The translations under genes were made by a program, and so were the position numbers. A DNA stretch of 37,568 nucleotides, from positions 1 through 37,568 of the forward strand of contig CALHDG010000083.1 in the NCBI GenBank assembly GCA_938023075.1. Reading direction: 5' to 3'. Shown in pieces: positions 601 through 27,779 of this stretch. The stretch is from an uncultured Chitinophagales bacterium (GTDB lineage Bacteria; Bacteroidota; Bacteroidia; Chitinophagales; JAHDHT01). How positions within the stretch are numbered: position 1 is the stretch's first letter; each line of letters starts with the position of its first letter. Below the pieces are notes generated by a model. That model searched no databases. It was not told the DNA's origin and saw only the letters and a list, made by a program, of their open reading frames with translations.

Positions 601-780
601 ACTTATTTGTAACAAGTAGCCAGCGAAGCCTCCAAAATAGCTTCGATTAGAGAGGAAATCCTTTGCCAATCCCAAAGGGTTGGGTGTTTGGAAAAGATTG
701 GAACGTAAAGCGGGACCGAAGTCTCCACGAGTTCAATTGTTTCGCTTCTAAAAAAGACCAACGTAAAATGTAAAAATGAA
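601..780. other. structured intergenic segment, function unknown
   Basis: This stretch separates the two toxin-antitoxin modules. It contains short self-complementary pieces: CGAAGC with GCTTCG around 626-651, and CCAATC with GATTGG around 668-711. It also contains an open frame on the minus strand that does not look like a real protein. The base composition is richer in G and C than the flanks. It has the look of a dispersed intergenic repeat, but no second copy is visible in this window. Confidence 0.3.
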
Positions 781-5046: not shown

Positions 5047-5127
5047 CATATATCGAAAACCGGTTTTTAAAATTCACATTCCTTTTTTACAATTTCATCC
5101 TTTGAAGCGAAACCAAACAACTCGTAC

Positions 5128-5213
5128 AAACGGCAGTCCCGCCATCCACTCAAATGCCGCACTCCGTTGGCGGCATAACCGCTACTGTCGGGGCTAGTTT
5201 GCCAACCTCGCTC
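5128..5213 (-). repeat. covarying structured repeat family, copy A
   Basis: Read on the minus strand, this 86-bp copy has the conserved parts GAGCGAG, outer stem CCCG/CGGG, inner stem ATGCCGC/GCGGCAT with a 9-nt loop, and 12-nt strands between the stems on each side. It starts 89 bp downstream of the stop codon of the small secreted protein gene (5302-5610), in the same orientation. The inner loop is 18-19 nt shorter than in the other two copies. Confidence 0.65.
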
Positions 5214-5249
5214 CCTCGTAGTTACATTTCATTACAATAGTTAATGCTT

Positions 5250-5793: not shown

Positions 5794-6993
5794 TCACCGG
5801 ATCTTCGGCGGCACGGTCCGTTTCTTTTTCAAATACACCAATTCATCAACACGCGGCTCTTGGGTTGGGTGTAATAAATTCAACTTTTGTAGCACACAAG
5901 TTTTAACACCATACTGTTGAGCAATGTGGTGTACCGTTTCACCTGCTTTTACCTGATGAATAGACGCTGCACCTTTATAAACCCGTTTTTTGTTTTGTAA
6001 AAAAATAGGTGTATGCGCTTCAAAAGTTGAAAACCCATCTAAGTCGTTAAATCGAAACAACTGTTTAAGTTTCACATTTTGAGCAGCGGCTACATCCGCA
6101 ACAGTTACCGGATAGTTATAAACAACAACCCGTAAATTGTTAATGTTAGCAAAACTAAAACTTTGCACAACAGCAGATTCAGCAGCAGGTTCAGCAGCAG
6201 ATTCAGCAGCAGATTCAGCAGCAGATTCAGCAGCAGATTCAGCAGCAGGTTCAGCAGCAGGTTCAGCAGCAGTACTGGGAGTTGAACTAGCAATCACCAC
6301 TTGTTCATTTTCATTAACCGGCACATCAAATTTTTTTGTTGGCTTAGGAGCTTTATTGGCAACCACCTTATTAGGCTCAACTTTTTTTTCGGTAACTGTA
6401 GCAGGCGGTTTGGCAACTGAAGTATAGCTCTCACCAAGCGATAACTGCCGGTTAGTTTCTACAATAGACCATAACTCTTGCCAGTTCGCTTTATCAAAAA
6501 TATGCAAGTAATACAACTCAATTTTTTGAATCAACAATTCGGCATATTTTGGGTTAGTAGCATAACCGCAACGCTTTAAGCCTTTTGCCCATTGTATATA
6601 ATCATCTTTAGCATAAGTAAACAAAACCGCATAGCGTTTCCGTCCGGTTAAAAAGTTAGAATGATCAATGTATGATTCGTAGACACTGTTGTATTTCCGA
6701 AAACATTCATTGGGAGCATCATCATCATGTCTAACACTGGGTCCTGTCCAATCGTGACATTTAATGCCAAAGTGGTTATTGCCCTCAGTAGCTAAACGGC
6801 TTGCTCCAATGCCCGATTCTAACAAACCTTGTGCTAAAGTAATGCTTGCCGGTATTCCCGTTCGGTTCATTTCTTCAATAGCAATATCCCGGTATAGATA
6901 AATATAGTTCCAAATTTTTTCATTTATTTGCGCAGTTGTGCAGTTGATAAAGCCAATAAACAAAAAAAGAGTAGTACATGTTTTCCAAATCAT
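5794..6993 (-). CDS. exported glucosaminidase with LysM-type domains
   Basis: A peptidoglycan hydrolase of the FlgJ/GH73 glucosaminidase family. I chose the ATG at 6993 rather than 7020 because it gives a clean signal peptide (MIWKTCTTLFLFIGFINC..AQ). The catalytic domain spans roughly the first 150 mature residues: ASITLAQGLLESGIGASRLA contains the likely catalytic Glu, and NNHFGIKCHDW and SYIDHSNFLTGRKRYAVLF are family motifs. A Lys/Pro/Ala-rich linker follows, including an (A-A-E-S/P)n tract from a 12-bp microsatellite (about 6170-6275). The C-terminus has one clear LysM (HQVKAGETVHHIAQQYGV) and a weaker one before it. It likely acts in septal or general cell-wall remodelling. Confidence 0.88.
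   Translation of the reverse strand: MIWKTCTTLFLFIGFINCTTAQINEKIWNYIYLYRDIAIEEMNRTGIPASITLAQGLLESGIGASRLATEGNNHFGIKCHDWTGPSVRHDDDAPNECFRKYNSVYESYIDHSNFLTGRKRYAVLFTYAKDDYIQWAKGLKRCGYATNPKYAELLIQKIELYYLHIFDKANWQELWSIVETNRQLSLGESYTSVAKPPATVTEKKVEPNKVVANKAPKPTKKFDVPVNENEQVVIASSTPSTAAEPAAEPAAESAAESAAESAAESAAEPAAESAVVQSFSFANINNLRVVVYNYPVTVADVAAAQNVKLKQLFRFNDLDGFSTFEAHTPIFLQNKKRVYKGAASIHQVKAGETVHHIAQQYGVKTCVLQKLNLLHPTQEPRVDELVYLKKKRTVPPKIR
6170..6275 (-). repeat. in-frame 12-bp microsatellite (AAES/AAEP coding)
   Basis: This is a run of near-identical 12-bp units (GATTCAGCAGCA or GGTTCAGCAGCA on the plus strand) inside the glucosaminidase gene. It encodes eight or so Ala-Ala-Glu-Ser/Pro units in the linker between catalytic and LysM domains. 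Unit gain or loss keeps the frame, so linker length could vary between strains. Confidence 0.85.
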
Positions 6994-16800: not shown

Positions 16801-19617
16801 ACAGATGCAAATGGTTGTAATAATACAGCCACTTCAACAGTTACCGTAAATCAAAATCCAACCGCAGCTGTAAATGATGCAGTTGTTTGTGATGGAGCAT
16901 CTGCTACCTTAACTGCATCGGGTGGTACTTCTTATTCATGGGATAATGGAGAAACTACAGAAAGTATTATGCTTGCTCCAAGTTCTAACGAAAGCTATAC
17001 CGTTACTGTTACCGATGACAATGGTTGTACCGATATGGCAACTGCTTCGGTAACGGTCAATCCAAATCCAACAGCAGCAGTAAATGATGCAGTTGTTTGT
17101 GATGGCGCATCTGCTACCTTAACTGCATCGGGTGGTACTTCATATTCATGGGATAATGGAGAAACTTCTGAATCGATTACTTTAGATCCGGCTGTAGCAG
17201 GTAGTTATACCGTTACGGTTACCGATGACAATGGTTGTACTGATATGGCAACTGCTTCGGTAACGGTCAATCCAAATCCAACAGCAGTAGTAAATGATGC
17301 AGTTGTTTGTGATGGAGCATCTGCTACCTTAACTGCATCAGGTGGTACTTCATATTCATGGGATAATGGAGAAACAACGGAAGCAATTACTTTAGATACA
17401 GCAGTTACGGGCACTTATACCGTTACGGTTACTGATGACAATGGTTGTACTGATATGGCAACTGCTTCGGTTACGGTCAATCCAAATCCAACCGCAGCTG
17501 TAAATGATGCAGTTGTTTGTGATGGAGCATCTGCTATCTTAACTGCATCAGGCGGTACTTCTTATTCATGGGATAATGGAGAAACAACGGAAGCAATTAC
17601 TTTAGATACAGCAGTTACGGGCACTTATACCGTTACGGTTACCGATGACAATGGTTGTACCGATATGGCAACTGCTTCGGTTACGGTCAATCCAAATCCA
17701 ACAGCGGCAGTAAATGATGCAGTTGTTTGTGATGGGGCACCTGCTACCTTAACTGCATCAGGCGGTACTTCTTATTTATGGGATAATGGAGAAACAACGG
17801 AAAGTATAATGCTTGCTCCAAGTTCTAATGAAAGCTATACCGTTACGGTTACTGATGATAATGGTTGTACCGATATGGCAACTGCTACGGTTACCGTAAA
17901 TCTAAATCCTGCGGCTTCTGTAAATGATGCGGTTGTTTGTTCAGGAGAATCGGCGACCTTAACGGCATCAGGTGGTACATCTTATGTATGGGAAAGTGGC
18001 GAAACGACAGCGTCAATCACTTTAGATCCGGCTGTAGCAGGTAGTTATACTGTTACGGTTACCGACGACAACGGTTGTTCGGATATGACCACGGCTACCA
18101 TCACGGTCAATCCAAATCCAACGGCTATAGTTAATGATGTGATAGTTTGTGAAGGTGAACCAGCGACCTTAACGGCTTCTGGTGGTACCTTGTATGCTTG
18201 GGAAGGTGGCGAAACGACGGAATCGCTTACTATAGATCCGGCTGTTTCGGGAACTTATTTAGTAACGGTTACCGATGATAATGGCTGCTCTGATATGGCA
18301 ACTGCTTCTATTTCTGTCAATCCAAATCCAACTGCAGGGGTTAATAGTGCAACGATATGTGAGGGTGAGGCGGCAACTTTAACAGCAACCGGAGGTACTT
18401 CATTTGAATGGGGTAATGGAGCAATGACTGCTACCATTGACGTAGCACCATCGGGTACTTTAGATTTTATAGTAACGGTTACCGATGATAATGGTTGTTC
18501 AGATTCAGCGACAACTACCGTTACGGTAAATCCAAGTCCGGCTGCGGCTATAGGAGATGTGACTGTCTGTGAAGGCGAAGCAGCAACTTTAACCGCTACA
18601 GGCGGAACTTCTTACCTTTGGGAAACCGGAGAAACCACAGAGACACTTACTTTTGATCCTGCAGTTGCCGGTACATATACAGTTACGGTTACTAATGATG
18701 ATAACTGTTCTGCCGAAGCTCAAGGTAATGTAATTGTTAATGCACCCCCAAGTGTAAGTATTTCATCTGATCAAACTGACATTTGTGAAGGTGTAAGTGT
18801 TACTTTAACCGCAAGCGGTGCCGACAGCTATTTATGGGATAACGGAGAAACCACTGCATCTATTACCACTACACCAGATTTGACTAGCACGTATAGTGTT
18901 ACCGGAACGAATTTAGGCTGTTCTGCATCAACAGATATAACTATTAACGTTACTAATATTAACTTAGGCAAATTAGCTATTGATTCTATATTTTGCAGGT
19001 TGCCAACTTCAAGCGAAAGTATAAAAGCCACGATTGCTGAAGAAAGTGAATTTGAAGAAGGCTTTGCAAAGTATTATGTGCTAGCTTATGGGCCCGATGA
19101 TGAGATTGTTGATTATCAGCTTTCCGAAGTGGTTAATCCACTGCCAAAATTTCAGGTTTCTACTGTTCCGGAAGGAATGTATTCTATTCACACTTTTATA
19201 GCGGACACCACAATTTTTGATGTGAAGACTTATTTAGATGATGCGGTTTTAAATAGGAGAACAATTGATGAGACCTATAGTTTAACTATTGAAGGTGGAG
19301 GCGATTTATGTGCAAAAATTGATAGAGAAGGTGCACAAACCGAACTTAAATTTTGCAGATTAGGGTCGCCAATGGAATTGGCTTTCGAGATTTTCCCTAA
19401 CCCTGCTAAAGAAATATTATACTTTAAAAATATTTCTTTAGAAAACTTAGTTTCGGTTGAATTGAGCAATGTAGAAGGAAAAATATTGCATCGATTTAAT
19501 TTGGATGAAGGTAAACAGTTACTCAGTCTTACAGTAGACGATTATCCTACGGGTGTTTATTTATTAAAAGCTACCACAGCTTTAAAAGCGCATACTACCA
19601 AAATTGTTATTCAGTAA
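13822..19617 (+). CDS. giant T9SS adhesin with about 18 Ig/PKD-like repeats
   Basis: A 1931-residue surface protein. After a signal peptide (LMGAISLFCLLSTLCMGQ) come two copies of a domain of about 198 residues starting at Cys39 and Cys237, each with ALDFS/ILDFS-x-GY.W, VEDQ, RDLDYK and NPTYxKIYIG motifs; this domain is not recognised. From about residue 432 there are some 18 repeats of about 70 residues with pattern VCxGxxATLTASGGTSYxWDNGETT...YTVTVTDDNGC, an Ig/PKD-like beta-sandwich common in gliding and adhesion proteins. Units from 16231 to about 18750 keep exact 210-bp register. A unique segment of about 150 residues precedes a T9SS type A sorting domain (IFPNPAKEILYF; YPTGVYLLKAT). It likely mediates attachment. 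A terminator follows at 19651. Confidence 0.88.
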   Translation: MKTKLLRQNLTKTKQQLMGAISLFCLLSTLCMGQASINCPDAILDFSQSGYHWAANQTNGDFTVEDQQFHVSIEDQDGILQDVQEAGAGLLIGTDPNTVDDYVSVIYQLSQSTSNVQFTIRDLDYKNYGYHSSNQQEAVCVYGYCRGEIVYPHITSLDGRVHISENCAEATQNSNKGHEESIQITFTECIDKIEIQYGTGNNSPVHNPTYGKIYIGEVGGILASTCNNNCTSCEDPCVDAALDFSEHGYDWHANSTSAVYTVEDQTIQISVEDPDGILEDTSEEGASIQIGIDPHTVDDVVNIRYELSETSDLVEFIIRDLDYKHYGAHRSNQQEQVCVFGYRNGEEVLPIISLIEGSVKIEDNCAIAMDDSRNGKDESIKIRFDECIDEVLIIYGNGPDTPVSNPTYSKIYIGDEFGFFAGYCEDTCIDCQLVVYAGEDQSICSNGAIELSASAVGFSSCGGQPAEVTYLWSTRETTPIISVQESGTYTVTVTDCNGCQASNEVNISITPDPDANAGDDVLICEGETVALTATGGLEYTWSNGETGATINVSPNTTTNYTVTVSNGNGCEASDEVTVTVAENPITNAGDDVAICAGGTIDLTATGGGSYVWDNGATEAVINVQPIETTTYSVMVTSNDGCLGTDEVTVTVNPNPEVTVESLAICEGQEATLSANSIAVGAVDFVWNNGETTPDISGRPAITTEYSVTITDANGCTGNASATVTVNPNPVVTVENVVICEGQTANLSATGFAIGAADFSWDNGESSQDIAVNPSETTDYMVTITDTNACNGSATATVTVNPNPAITVNDAVICLGDDASLIAEGGETYSWDAGFDGPEITISPETSTPYIVTGTDANGCSSTAVANVTVNTNPLASVDDAVICEGASVTLNAFGGTTYAWASGETTANIMVSPGLTTDYTVTVTDNNGCTDTAIATVTVNPNPAITVNDAVICVGDDATLTAEGGVTYSWEPVFSGQVITVSPNMSATYMVTGTDANGCNNTATSTVTVNQNPTAAVNDAVVCDGASATLTASGGTSYSWDNGETTESIMLAPSSNESYTVTVTDDNGCTDMATASVTVNPNPTAAVNDAVVCDGASATLTASGGTSYSWDNGETSESITLDPAVAGSYTVTVTDDNGCTDMATASVTVNPNPTAVVNDAVVCDGASATLTASGGTSYSWDNGETTEAITLDTAVTGTYTVTVTDDNGCTDMATASVTVNPNPTAAVNDAVVCDGASAILTASGGTSYSWDNGETTEAITLDTAVTGTYTVTVTDDNGCTDMATASVTVNPNPTAAVNDAVVCDGAPATLTASGGTSYLWDNGETTESIMLAPSSNESYTVTVTDDNGCTDMATATVTVNLNPAASVNDAVVCSGESATLTASGGTSYVWESGETTASITLDPAVAGSYTVTVTDDNGCSDMTTATITVNPNPTAIVNDVIVCEGEPATLTASGGTLYAWEGGETTESLTIDPAVSGTYLVTVTDDNGCSDMATASISVNPNPTAGVNSATICEGEAATLTATGGTSFEWGNGAMTATIDVAPSGTLDFIVTVTDDNGCSDSATTTVTVNPSPAAAIGDVTVCEGEAATLTATGGTSYLWETGETTETLTFDPAVAGTYTVTVTNDDNCSAEAQGNVIVNAPPSVSISSDQTDICEGVSVTLTASGADSYLWDNGETTASITTTPDLTSTYSVTGTNLGCSASTDITINVTNINLGKLAIDSIFCRLPTSSESIKATIAEESEFEEGFAKYYVLAYGPDDEIVDYQLSEVVNPLPKFQVSTVPEGMYSIHTFIADTTIFDVKTYLDDAVLNRRTIDETYSLTIEGGGDLCAKIDREGAQTELKFCRLGSPMELAFEIFPNPAKEILYFKNISLENLVSVELSNVEGKILHRFNLDEGKQLLSLTVDDYPTGVYLLKATTALKAHTTKIVIQ
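16231..18750 (+). repeat. 12 in-register 210-bp tandem repeats in the adhesin gene
   Basis: Successive units start at 16231, 16441, 16651, 16861, 17071, 17281, 17491, 17701, 17911, 18121, 18331 and 18541. Each encodes 70 residues. Units beginning 16861-17701 are nearly identical; outer units are more diverged. Segment variants are shared between non-neighbouring units, which suggests recombination within the array. Confidence 0.9.
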
Positions 19618-19650
19618 CAGTTTGAATATTTAAATTTTAATAAGAAAATA

Positions 19651-19686
19651 AAAAAGCAGTTCCATTTTTGGGGCTGCTTTTTTTTT
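19651..19686 (+). terminator. rho-independent terminator of the adhesin gene
   Basis: The stem AAAAAGCAGTTCC (19651-19663) pairs with GGGGCTGCTTTTT (19670-19682) with two G-T pairs and a 6-nt loop, followed by a T run. It lies 34 bp after the adhesin stop codon. Confidence 0.85.
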
Positions 19687-19718
19687 GTGTACCAGAAAAC
19701 AGAACCCGACAATAACAT

Positions 19719-19823
19719 GAGCGAGTTTAGCAAACTAACCCTGATTGCAGCGGTTATGCCTTTTGTCGCGTTGGCTTTTGCAGCATTGGCAAGGCATTTG
19801 AGCGGAAAGCAGGCTGCGCGTTT
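19719..19823 (+). repeat. covarying structured repeat family, copy B
   Basis: This 105-bp copy contains GAGCGAG, outer stem CCTG/CAGG, inner stem ATGCCTT/AAGGCAT with a 28-nt loop, and the 12-nt strands between stems (conserved AGCGGTT and TTGAGCGGA). It is about 100 bp downstream of the adhesin stop codon, just after the terminator, in the same orientation. An open frame across it (19687-19881) is not considered a gene. Confidence 0.7.
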
Positions 19824-19968
19824 ATCATTGTTCCTATCGATTCGTTTCAAAAAAAATATAGTTACAAGAAAGCCCCGTTAAATCAGCTTCTGTCATTTTA
19901 TATAAGGGCAATTTATTTTGACGTGTTCATATTTAAGCACTTTCGCTTTAAAAAAAAATAAAATTTGA

Positions 19969-19976
19969 TATATTTG
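19969..19976 (+). promoter_or_regulatory. -7 element of the alkB gene
   Basis: TATATTTG is an exact TAnnTTTG match, 22 bp before the start codon of the alkane monooxygenase gene. The spacing resembles that of the element before 7114. Confidence 0.55.
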
Positions 19977-19998
19977 GAGAACAAAAATCAAGAAGATT

Positions 19999-21096
19999 AT
20001 GAATACGAATGTGTTAAAGTATGTATCTATTTTTATCGCTCCCCTAATTGGTATTGTTTCGTTAACGTATAATGGTTGGTTGGCTTGGGCATTGCCCCTT
20101 TATGCTTTTGGCTTTATTCCCTTAGCAGATTATTTTGCGCCGGCAAGTGAAAAGAACATGTCGGCTGCCGAAGAGGAAATTGCAAAAAATGACCCCATTT
20201 ACGATTGGTTGTTGTATTCAATTATTCCGGTACATTATGCTACATTGGTTTACTTTTTTTATGTGATGGGGCAGCCGGGTTTAAGTACGGCTGACATGAT
20301 TGCCAAAGTATTTACCATGGGTATTGGCTGTAGTATTTTTGGTATTAATGTTGCCCATGAGTTAGGTCACCGCGCAAAAAAAAGTGAAAAGATGATGTCG
20401 AAAATGTTGTTGTTAACTTCTATGTATATGCACTTTTTTATAGAGCACAATCGTGGGCATCATAAAAATGTTTCTACCGATGATGATCCGGCATCGAGCC
20501 GTTTAAACGAACCTTTGTATACTTTTTTGTTTCGCTCGGTTGTTTTTAGTTATGTCTCTGCATGGAATTTAGAAAACACGCGTTTGCGTAAAAAAGGCAT
20601 CGCGCTATTGTCTTTTAACAATGAAATGATTCGGTTTTCACTAATTCAAGTTGCTTTTGTTGCCTTAATTTTTGTGCTATGGGGAGCAACCATAACCATG
20701 TATTTTTTAATAGCGGCTACTATCGGGTTTTTATTATTAGAAGTAGTGAATTATATTGAACACTATGGTTTAAGAAGAAAAAAATTAGAGAATGGACGTT
20801 GGAGTAAAGTAACGCAGCACCATAGTTGGAATAGCAATTATGCGTTGGGCAGAATTATGTTATTTGAATTGACCCGTCATTCCGATCATCATTATAAAGC
20901 CAGCAGAAAATATCAGGTATTAAGACATTTTGATGATAGCCCACAAATGCCTTTTGGGTATCCGGCTATGATGTTGATATCGCTTGTACCGCCACTTTTC
21001 TTTAAAATTATGAACAAGCAAATTGAAGAGTATCAACTTAATTTGTTGCAAGAAGATGTTAAGCAACGTGTGCCTAAAGAAATTCAGCTAGCTTGA
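19999..21096 (+). CDS. alkB: alkane 1-monooxygenase (AlkB-type membrane di-iron hydroxylase)
   Basis: A 365-residue integral-membrane hydroxylase that oxidises the terminal carbon of medium-chain alkanes or similar chains, using O2 and electrons from rubredoxin. All histidine boxes are present: HELGHR (120-125), EHNRGHH (149-155) and LTRHSDHH (291-298). The AlkB-typical NYIEHYGL (251-258) and HHSWNS (274-279) motifs are also present. Several hydrophobic segments (about residues 8-45, 70-90, 105-120, 210-250, 322-337) fit six membrane spans. No rubredoxin or rubredoxin reductase is adjacent, and no fused rubredoxin domain is seen, so electron donors must be encoded elsewhere. The natural substrate is not determinable from sequence. 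Confidence 0.92.
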   Translation: MNTNVLKYVSIFIAPLIGIVSLTYNGWLAWALPLYAFGFIPLADYFAPASEKNMSAAEEEIAKNDPIYDWLLYSIIPVHYATLVYFFYVMGQPGLSTADMIAKVFTMGIGCSIFGINVAHELGHRAKKSEKMMSKMLLLTSMYMHFFIEHNRGHHKNVSTDDDPASSRLNEPLYTFLFRSVVFSYVSAWNLENTRLRKKGIALLSFNNEMIRFSLIQVAFVALIFVLWGATITMYFLIAATIGFLLLEVVNYIEHYGLRRKKLENGRWSKVTQHHSWNSNYALGRIMLFELTRHSDHHYKASRKYQVLRHFDDSPQMPFGYPAMMLISLVPPLFFKIMNKQIEEYQLNLLQEDVKQRVPKEIQLA

Positions 21097-27441: not shown

Positions 27442-27491
27442 AGATAGCACAAACAACATAATTTTTGGAATGTTAATTAATGTAATGCCAT

Positions 27492-27592
27492 GAGCTTAGA
27501 AGCCTAACCCTGATAGGAGCGGTTATGCTGCCTGAAGCGTTGGCTTTGGAGCATAGCCGCAGCATTTGAGCGGATAGCAGGCTGCGCGTTTC
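27492..27592 (+). repeat. covarying structured repeat family, copy C
   Basis: This 101-bp copy contains GAGC, outer stem CCTG/CAGG, inner stem ATGCTGC/GCAGCAT with a 27-nt loop, and the 12-nt strands between stems. It begins 50 bp downstream of the decayed golvesin gene, in the same orientation. Confidence 0.7.
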
Positions 27593-27779
27593 TAAATACT
27601 CCTTTTGTTTCGTTTCTAATTAATATAAATATTATTAATATTTAAAATATACAAAGCTACTGCATCAGCCAATAATAAACGAACTGTTCTCATCGTATCT
27701 ATTTTAACTATCCCCAGTTTTTAAAGATACTTAGACAACAGCTCGTTTTAAACATTGATCGCTTATAAGGAATGCTACA

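Follow-up and report, generated by a model that had tools for sequence, protein, structure and literature searches.

Multiplication of a Flavo-1 subfamily in an uncultured Chitinophagales bacterium, with a conserved fold and a possible REP-like manner of spread

The window analyzed here is a stretch of 37,568 nucleotides from the genome of an uncultured Chitinophagales bacterium (G000; 6.12 Mb in 288 contigs), and it carries four copies of a folded repeat. Three of these (A, B, and C) were the subject of a preliminary description, and on re-examination they lie at the places given there, with the stems as described and a common fold bearing compensating changes; the fourth was absent from that description. 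The placing was correct, with two amendments: the strand of copy A is minus (that of B and C is plus), and the repeat is longer than had been stated. The copies are as follows, with the approximate ends of A, B, and C taken from a flank profile of 84 copies.

5104 to 5220, minus strand: copy A, full element, with a short apical loop; Rfam-aligned core 5131-5199; Flavo-1 match of 28.8 bits over model positions 1-76
19712 to 19848, plus strand: copy B, full element; core 19733-19820, with an A-run (19849-19856) directly after the element; Flavo-1 match of 31.6 bits over model positions 1-76
27481 to 27616, plus strand: copy C, full element; core 27502-27588; Flavo-1 match of 27.5 bits over model positions 1-76
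635 to 721, plus strand: fourth copy, a canonical Flavo-1 of the GGAAATCC type, at 50 bits (above the gathering score of 42 bits)

The preliminary description knew of no named RNA family with this shape and proposed a comparison with Rfam. That comparison returned Flavo-1 (RF01705; a model of 76 positions with a gathering cut-off of 42 bits), so that the shape is not a nameless one. At the gathering level Rfam reports one Flavo-1 in the window, at 635-721, and copies A, B, and C appear at relaxed thresholds as full-model matches of 27.5-31.6 bits, below the cut-off. Within this genome, however, at least 12 copies that carry exactly the same subfamily core (their places were matched by hand) do pass it, for example, C24:47976-48063 at 46.5 bits. 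The alignment covers all 76 positions in each of the four window copies and shows the same helices and internal loops. The window subfamily differs in its inner stem (GCGGTTATGC/GCATTTGAGYGG rather than the GGAAATCC/GATTGNARCG of Flavo-1), in the scores of A, B, and C below the gathering level, in its conserved outer arms, and in its lineage-specific amplification. Copies A, B, and C are almost certainly divergent members of Flavo-1 and belong to a subfamily multiplied in this lineage. The novelty is what the data say about Flavo-1, not a new shape. A weak isrG match at 6192-6272 on the minus strand arises from a codon repeat in a glucosaminidase/LysM gene and was taken as spurious.

When the best 150 of 1826 proposed candidates were scored, the window's genome gave at least 146 Flavo-1 matches, at least 72 of them over the cut-off. 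The strict core of the subfamily, GCGGTTATGC-N8..38-GCATTTGAGYGGA, has 253 exact matches in this genome (129 and 124 on the two strands), as against none for the reversed control pattern, and the repetition of the subfamily is far beyond chance. Among the 58 relatives searched, the nearest (same family, other genus) has a single copy of the subfamily core and the other 57 have none, although Flavo-1 itself occurs at E <= 0.001 in at least 28 of the 59 genomes (the window's own and the 58 relatives). Counts are also uneven within one genus, four species of which carry at least 6, 1, 33, and 49 copies under stricter filters and with a ceiling of 66 scored candidates (the last two genomes being 87% and 84% complete). 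It is this unevenness, together with the 253 cores here against 1 and 0 in the relatives, that indicates amplification.

In the flank profile of 84 copies, conservation extends from ~43 nt before the core to ~50 nt after it and ends at the 3' side in GTTTCGYTTC; an A-run usually comes next, although copies A and C have none; the flanks outside the element are unrelated among copies. The copies lie scattered through the genome, mostly between genes, and have a single conserved fold. A BLAST search with one Flavobacterium copy gave no match to a phage or plasmid, and 2.9 million viral contigs yielded five stretches for the canonical Flavo-1 pattern and none for the subfamily pattern.

The claim that the fold is under selection had been made from three copies, and we examined covariation in 81 copies from the window's genome (80 of them distinct), with shuffles and column sliding as controls. 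Standard pairs filled 98.3% of 1200 pair cells, compared with 88.2% after shuffling, and 12 of the 15 pairs showed double changes among the 80 distinct copies. Double-change cells numbered 141, whereas shuffles gave 34 and sliding the partner by 1 to 3 columns gave no more than 10, with kinship among the copies inflating the counts. The z-scores for single-sequence folding energy on the element strand (A, -0.61; B, 1.38; C, -1.43) do not themselves show a fold, and the case for it rests on covariation, not on predicted stability. Covariation of the outer arms in this genome's subfamily was considered and set aside as not convincing (best z of 3.5 over ~3160 column pairs).

To ask which strand folds, we counted G.T and A.C mismatched pairs, since an inverted repeat acting as a duplex or a cruciform should show the two equally, and an excess of G.T means that the fold of one strand is under selection, as RNA or as single-stranded DNA of that strand. 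The sample, drawn from GTDB, comprised at least 120 canonical stretches, of which 116 were usable and 115 distinct, and the count covered the 11 columns that are at least ~65% Watson-Crick and that the search pattern left free to vary (four further columns, o3-o6, which are 9 to 52% paired, were left out). Among the matches listed, these 115 elements gave 49 G.T against 5 A.C (p 4e-10), 34 against 5 without the column nearest the loop (p 2e-6), and 58 against 6 with the four pattern-fixed columns added. One strand's fold is thus selected in the canonical relatives. The intact rows of the window genome's own subfamily (75 rows; G.T 3, A.C 0) are too uniform to decide the strand alone. The strong covariation in this subfamily and the G.T excess in its canonical relatives together support the selected fold that the preliminary description had proposed.

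By our reading, many copies elsewhere form a three-way junction in which an outer helix (P1) encloses two hairpins, that of Flavo-1 itself (P2) and a small one (P3) recognized by eye only. Variants of P1 in the relatives include GCGTT/AACGC, GCGTG/CACGC, and GCATG/CATGC, and P1 starts with GC in 51 of the 115 distinct canonical elements among the matches listed. Where the 3' anchor could be placed in such GC-start elements, all three variable P1 pairs were Watson-Crick in 35 of 40, compared with a mean of 6.8 and a maximum of 15 in 1000 shuffles; the 11 GC-start elements with no placed anchor were left out, and several of these pair by eye. A filter against the other architecture removed one element only, and the 63 elements that lack the GC start are mostly of the TAGC type (type I). 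An extra closing helix, missing from the Rfam match, is present in at least 35 of the 115 sampled relatives.

With gene calls made under a simple ORF rule, 69 of 85 local copies in the window's genome had called genes on both sides (of the others, 10 lie in ORFs taken as mostly spurious and the rest at locus edges). By element strand, the contexts of the 69 were +E- 22, -E- 27, -E+ 11, and +E+ 9. Of the 36 co-directional contexts, 27 have the element antisense and 9 have it sense (p 0.004). In 49 of all 69 contexts the 3' side of the element points toward the end of a gene (p 0.0006), which implies that placement is not neutral. The GTDB sample gave -E+ 14, +E+ 23, -E- 31, and +E- 16 among the matches listed, with 21 at edges and 11 in ORFs; there, the 54 co-directional contexts among the matches listed showed no clear sense bias (31 antisense, 23 sense; p 0.34). 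The sense and antisense counts in the two sets argue that the repeat is not an mRNA element. An intrinsic terminator was also considered and rejected: in the 84 copies the 3' end is followed by A and the 5' end preceded by T-rich DNA, and there is no hairpin followed by a T-run. A terminator scan of the copy B region (19400-20100) found a single site, at 19650-19683, before copy B, and none inside the element.

These observations bear on the main alternative to the reading that we favor below, namely, that each copy is a functional RNA, an independent sRNA or a UTR element, whose fold acts in the RNA at its own locus. Such a role is implied by the Rfam type "Gene; sRNA" and by the 2010 description, in which Flavo-1 is a candidate RNA whose function is not known, entered in Table 1 as "y" for RNA and "n" for cis-regulatory (Weinberg 2010, PMC2864571, in the portion available). 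Covariation in 12 of 15 pairs, the one-strand asymmetry in canonical relatives, and conservation with compensation in place (see below) all agree with it, as does the report that several 5' transcribed regions of F. psychrophilum coincide with Flavo-1 (PMC9723704). The same 2021 transcriptome study weighs on the other side too, as its available portion has Flavo-1 matches lying sense or antisense to transcribed regions alike, with many outside such regions, and offers no real clue to function (PMC9723704). With no sense bias toward neighbors among the GTDB matches listed, an antisense excess in the window's genome, no terminator-like site inside the element in the stretch around copy B that was scanned, and hundreds of lineage-specific copies, we consider it unlikely that each copy is a functional RNA. 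Our literature search located no functional study of Flavo-1. The FopS sRNAs of Bacteroides resemble Flavo-1 in being a multicopy paralogous noncoding family of the Bacteroidota, but in the accessible description they number 14 copies and have a single-stranded seed, a terminator hairpin, and defined promoters (PMC11697453); a relation was rejected because the structure so described differs from that of Flavo-1.

Several comparisons bear on how the element moves and whether it is kept. One Flavobacterium copy has ~90-bp matches at many places in 18 genomes, mostly 86-96% identical among the matches listed, compared with 74-83% for long coding matches. At one orthologous gap the element is present in L232 and L146 and missing in L155, and at another it is present in L164 and missing in L145, so that gain or loss has occurred. 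Precise empty sites with target duplications were sought in Flavobacterium and none was resolved, the intergenic DNA being too diverged for exact junctions, and no target-site duplication of Flavo-1 was established in the sites compared. A test between G058 and G045 took 28 of 42 and 15 of 21 model matches, respectively (weaker ones were dropped); most had no homologous region or one side only, and the element was kept in all six sites at which both flanks could be compared. Pooled over 12 orthologous pairs, identity was 82% in the core against 49% in the left flank and 75% in the right flank, which by our reading is often coding, and in 2 of the 12 the core barely exceeded the left flank (83 versus 80% and 68 versus 59%). 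By hand reading, the differences within the L333/L309 pair include G.T steps and two base pairs compensated on both sides; three broken base pairs occur elsewhere in that set. Retention in place is shown at the compared sites; the core-to-flank difference, the compensated L333/L309 pair, and the loss of pairing in interrupted copies (below) argue for selection in place.

In four of eight compared orthologous pairs (L164:6577/L145:1527, L121/L253, L190/L203, and L232/L146), the apical hairpin is wholly exchanged and the element otherwise nearly identical, which points to gene conversion between copies. Were conversion to move both arms of a stem as a block, covariation could arise without selected folding, and the exchanged hairpins are what would be expected. 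This accounts best for the apical stem, but the outer, 2-bp, and P1 helices covary too, and block exchange would not yield the G.T/A.C asymmetry. Both observations weigh against gene conversion as a full account, which we regard as very improbable.

Orientation was examined as well. Neighboring copies in three Flavobacterium genomes are co-oriented in 75 of 118 pairs (p 0.004; among the matches listed out of 178), and on one contig, G062:C13, all 15 copies listed between 230 and 619 kb (L267-L270) are co-oriented, 13 of them clustered in ~92 kb; the region is gene-diverse. A genome-wide replication-strand rule was rejected, as without this contig the co-oriented neighbors listed number 61 of 104 (p 0.095). 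The co-oriented 390-kb stretch would suit an integron-like attC site, that is, an imperfect single-stranded DNA palindrome with a variable loop. The genes of this array are by our reading unlike cassettes, orientation elsewhere is mixed (the same 61 of 104), and a search of the window's genome for the integron integrase (TIGR02249) found none over the cut-off; we consider an attC identity extremely improbable.

Many copies are interrupted by a second element, X (~221-231 nt, with no gene noticed), which lies inside Flavo-1 at one fixed place, TAGCCCCGATT, then X, then GCAGCGG. Allowing up to three mismatches, 57 of the 70 X 5' ends in the window's genome directly follow a Flavo-1 left half, and at least 5 of the remaining 13 are tandem X copies with a spacing of 225-228 bp. 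Copies of X inside Flavo-1 include the following.

L022:9820 and L022:15307: X inside Flavo-1
L029:3377, L034:10816, and L035:10844: X inside Flavo-1
L038:7120, L053:14234, and L009:2078: X inside Flavo-1

The hosts differ in their flanks and stems, from which we infer independent, site-specific insertions of X. Under the same search rule, inner-helix cells were unpaired in 3 of 45 in X-interrupted copies versus 2 of 675 in intact ones (Fisher p 0.002), and three more X copies, found under another rule and outside this count, have one broken pair each; G.T and A.C numbered 4 and 8 in five interrupted rows. The poorer pairing fits selection on intact copies or a greater age of the interrupted ones. 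X is possibly a non-autonomous IS110-like element. IS110/IS621 elements insert into REP sites, and the likeness is that X and an IS110-family gene (PF02371, PF01548), the latter after the same Flavo-1 left half at L009, both adjoin Flavo-1 at one fixed position; X differs in being ~221-231 nt long with no gene noticed, and any likeness in mechanism is putative. At L022:9588-9801 there is a nested insertion within X, with two copies of ACACTTAG 213 bp apart that resemble an 8-bp target duplication, and Flavobacterium Flavo-1 elements carry a 27-nt TGCTTCGCCAGTTCGCTTCGCTCGTGT at about the site of X (L195:6980, L217:190 and 751, and L268:13475).

We also searched for a mobilizing gene. Among 463 ORFs lying no farther than 2 kb from one of 126 elements, no gene family recurred; the largest grouping, at five loci, is by our reading an ABC transporter. 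Scanning 37 Y1_Tnp loci against Rfam (9 in the window's genome and 28 in 8 of 10 relatives searched) placed Flavo-1 within ~1.5 kb of 3 of the 37, compared with ~3.1 expected from the density in G058, and on both sides of the Y1 gene in none, with the proviso that the Rfam model may miss divergent copies. Sequence reading added one case, L009, where a Y1 gene (1462-1908) has a Flavo-1 left half on one side, at 56, and an X-interrupted copy on the other, starting at ~1979. We ascribe this arrangement to separate IS insertions. The whole of L009:56-2330 is an insertion nest around Flavo-1, comprising the left half, the IS110-family gene, the Y1 transposase gene, and the X-interrupted Flavo-1 on the minus strand. 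At L010 a Y1 transposase gene (a 159-aa frame) lies within its own GCTCCGATGGAGC/TTTTCTACCAAGGTTTTGCTCCGATGGAGCAAGG repeat arrays and looks like a Bacteroidota REPtron.

REP/BIME sequences and RAYT REPtrons, in the accessible part of their description, are likewise small imperfect palindromes, mostly intergenic, present in hundreds of copies, lineage specific, and hit by other insertion elements (PMC3733652), and the repeats studied here share the REP-type trait of a high-copy, intergenic, lineage-specific palindrome. They differ from that description in having no GTAG tag at the conserved TAG (the base before it is never G in 84 copies), in having no consistent link to a Y1 transposase, in being larger, and in having conserved internal loops. 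A REP/RAYT link was rejected, because Flavo-1 occurs near Y1 loci at the level of its density and none of these is flanked on both sides by Rfam matches, L009 being the exception. The preliminary description had set its selected structure against a match to a transposon end, an attC site, or a REP family; no attC or RAYT-linked REP match emerged as far as tested, but the objection holds in part, the copies being matches to a catalogued RNA family.

A purely selfish REP or MITE, mobilized by a transposase, whether IS200-like (Y1/HUH) or of another kind, and folded for transposition only, would have no function in place. The pattern of amplification, the higher identity of the ~90-bp matches than of coding matches in the Flavobacterium genomes (among those listed), the unrelated flanks, and the Y1 gene between two Flavo-1 pieces at L009 would all follow from it. 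Conservation in place would not, 36 of the 37 Y1 loci have no Flavo-1 on both sides (subject to the same proviso on divergent copies), and the Y1 gene at L010 sits among repeats of its own; we judge a purely selfish element improbable.

The reading that we favor is that of a REP-like structural element, dispersed in the genome and recognized in the form of a folded single strand. We hold the case for and against it to be evenly balanced. Two points weakened our confidence in it: the copies of this genome do not alone give a strand asymmetry, and at one locus a Y1 gene is situated between two Flavo-1 pieces. On this reading, small non-autonomous repeats would be spread by a candidate copying enzyme, and either that enzyme or a host protein would recognize the folded single strand of the element, whether as RNA or as single-stranded DNA, with putative recognition through the conserved internal loops (GNA/GNA and GG..A) between variable helices. 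Intact copies would be under selection where they sit, and interrupted copies would decay. The mobilizing enzyme and the binding partner in this scheme are what we infer. A broader proposal, which we put forward tentatively and think possible but doubtful as a whole, is that Flavo-1 constitutes, rather than a family of sRNAs, a Bacteroidota/Spirochaete class of mobile elements that act as folded single strands, with a three-way junction in many members, which would be functional in place, spread through RNA or single-stranded DNA without a dedicated Y1 transposase, exchange its apical hairpin as a module, and serve as the main landing site of element X.

For the family, these results mean that some members of this subfamily, copies A, B, and C all included, escape detection at the Rfam cut-off, and that the covarying P1 helix of many Flavo-1 members falls outside the Rfam match. 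They also make the questions about Flavo-1 testable, namely, which strand is read, whether as RNA or as single-stranded DNA, which protein binds it, and which enzyme copies it.
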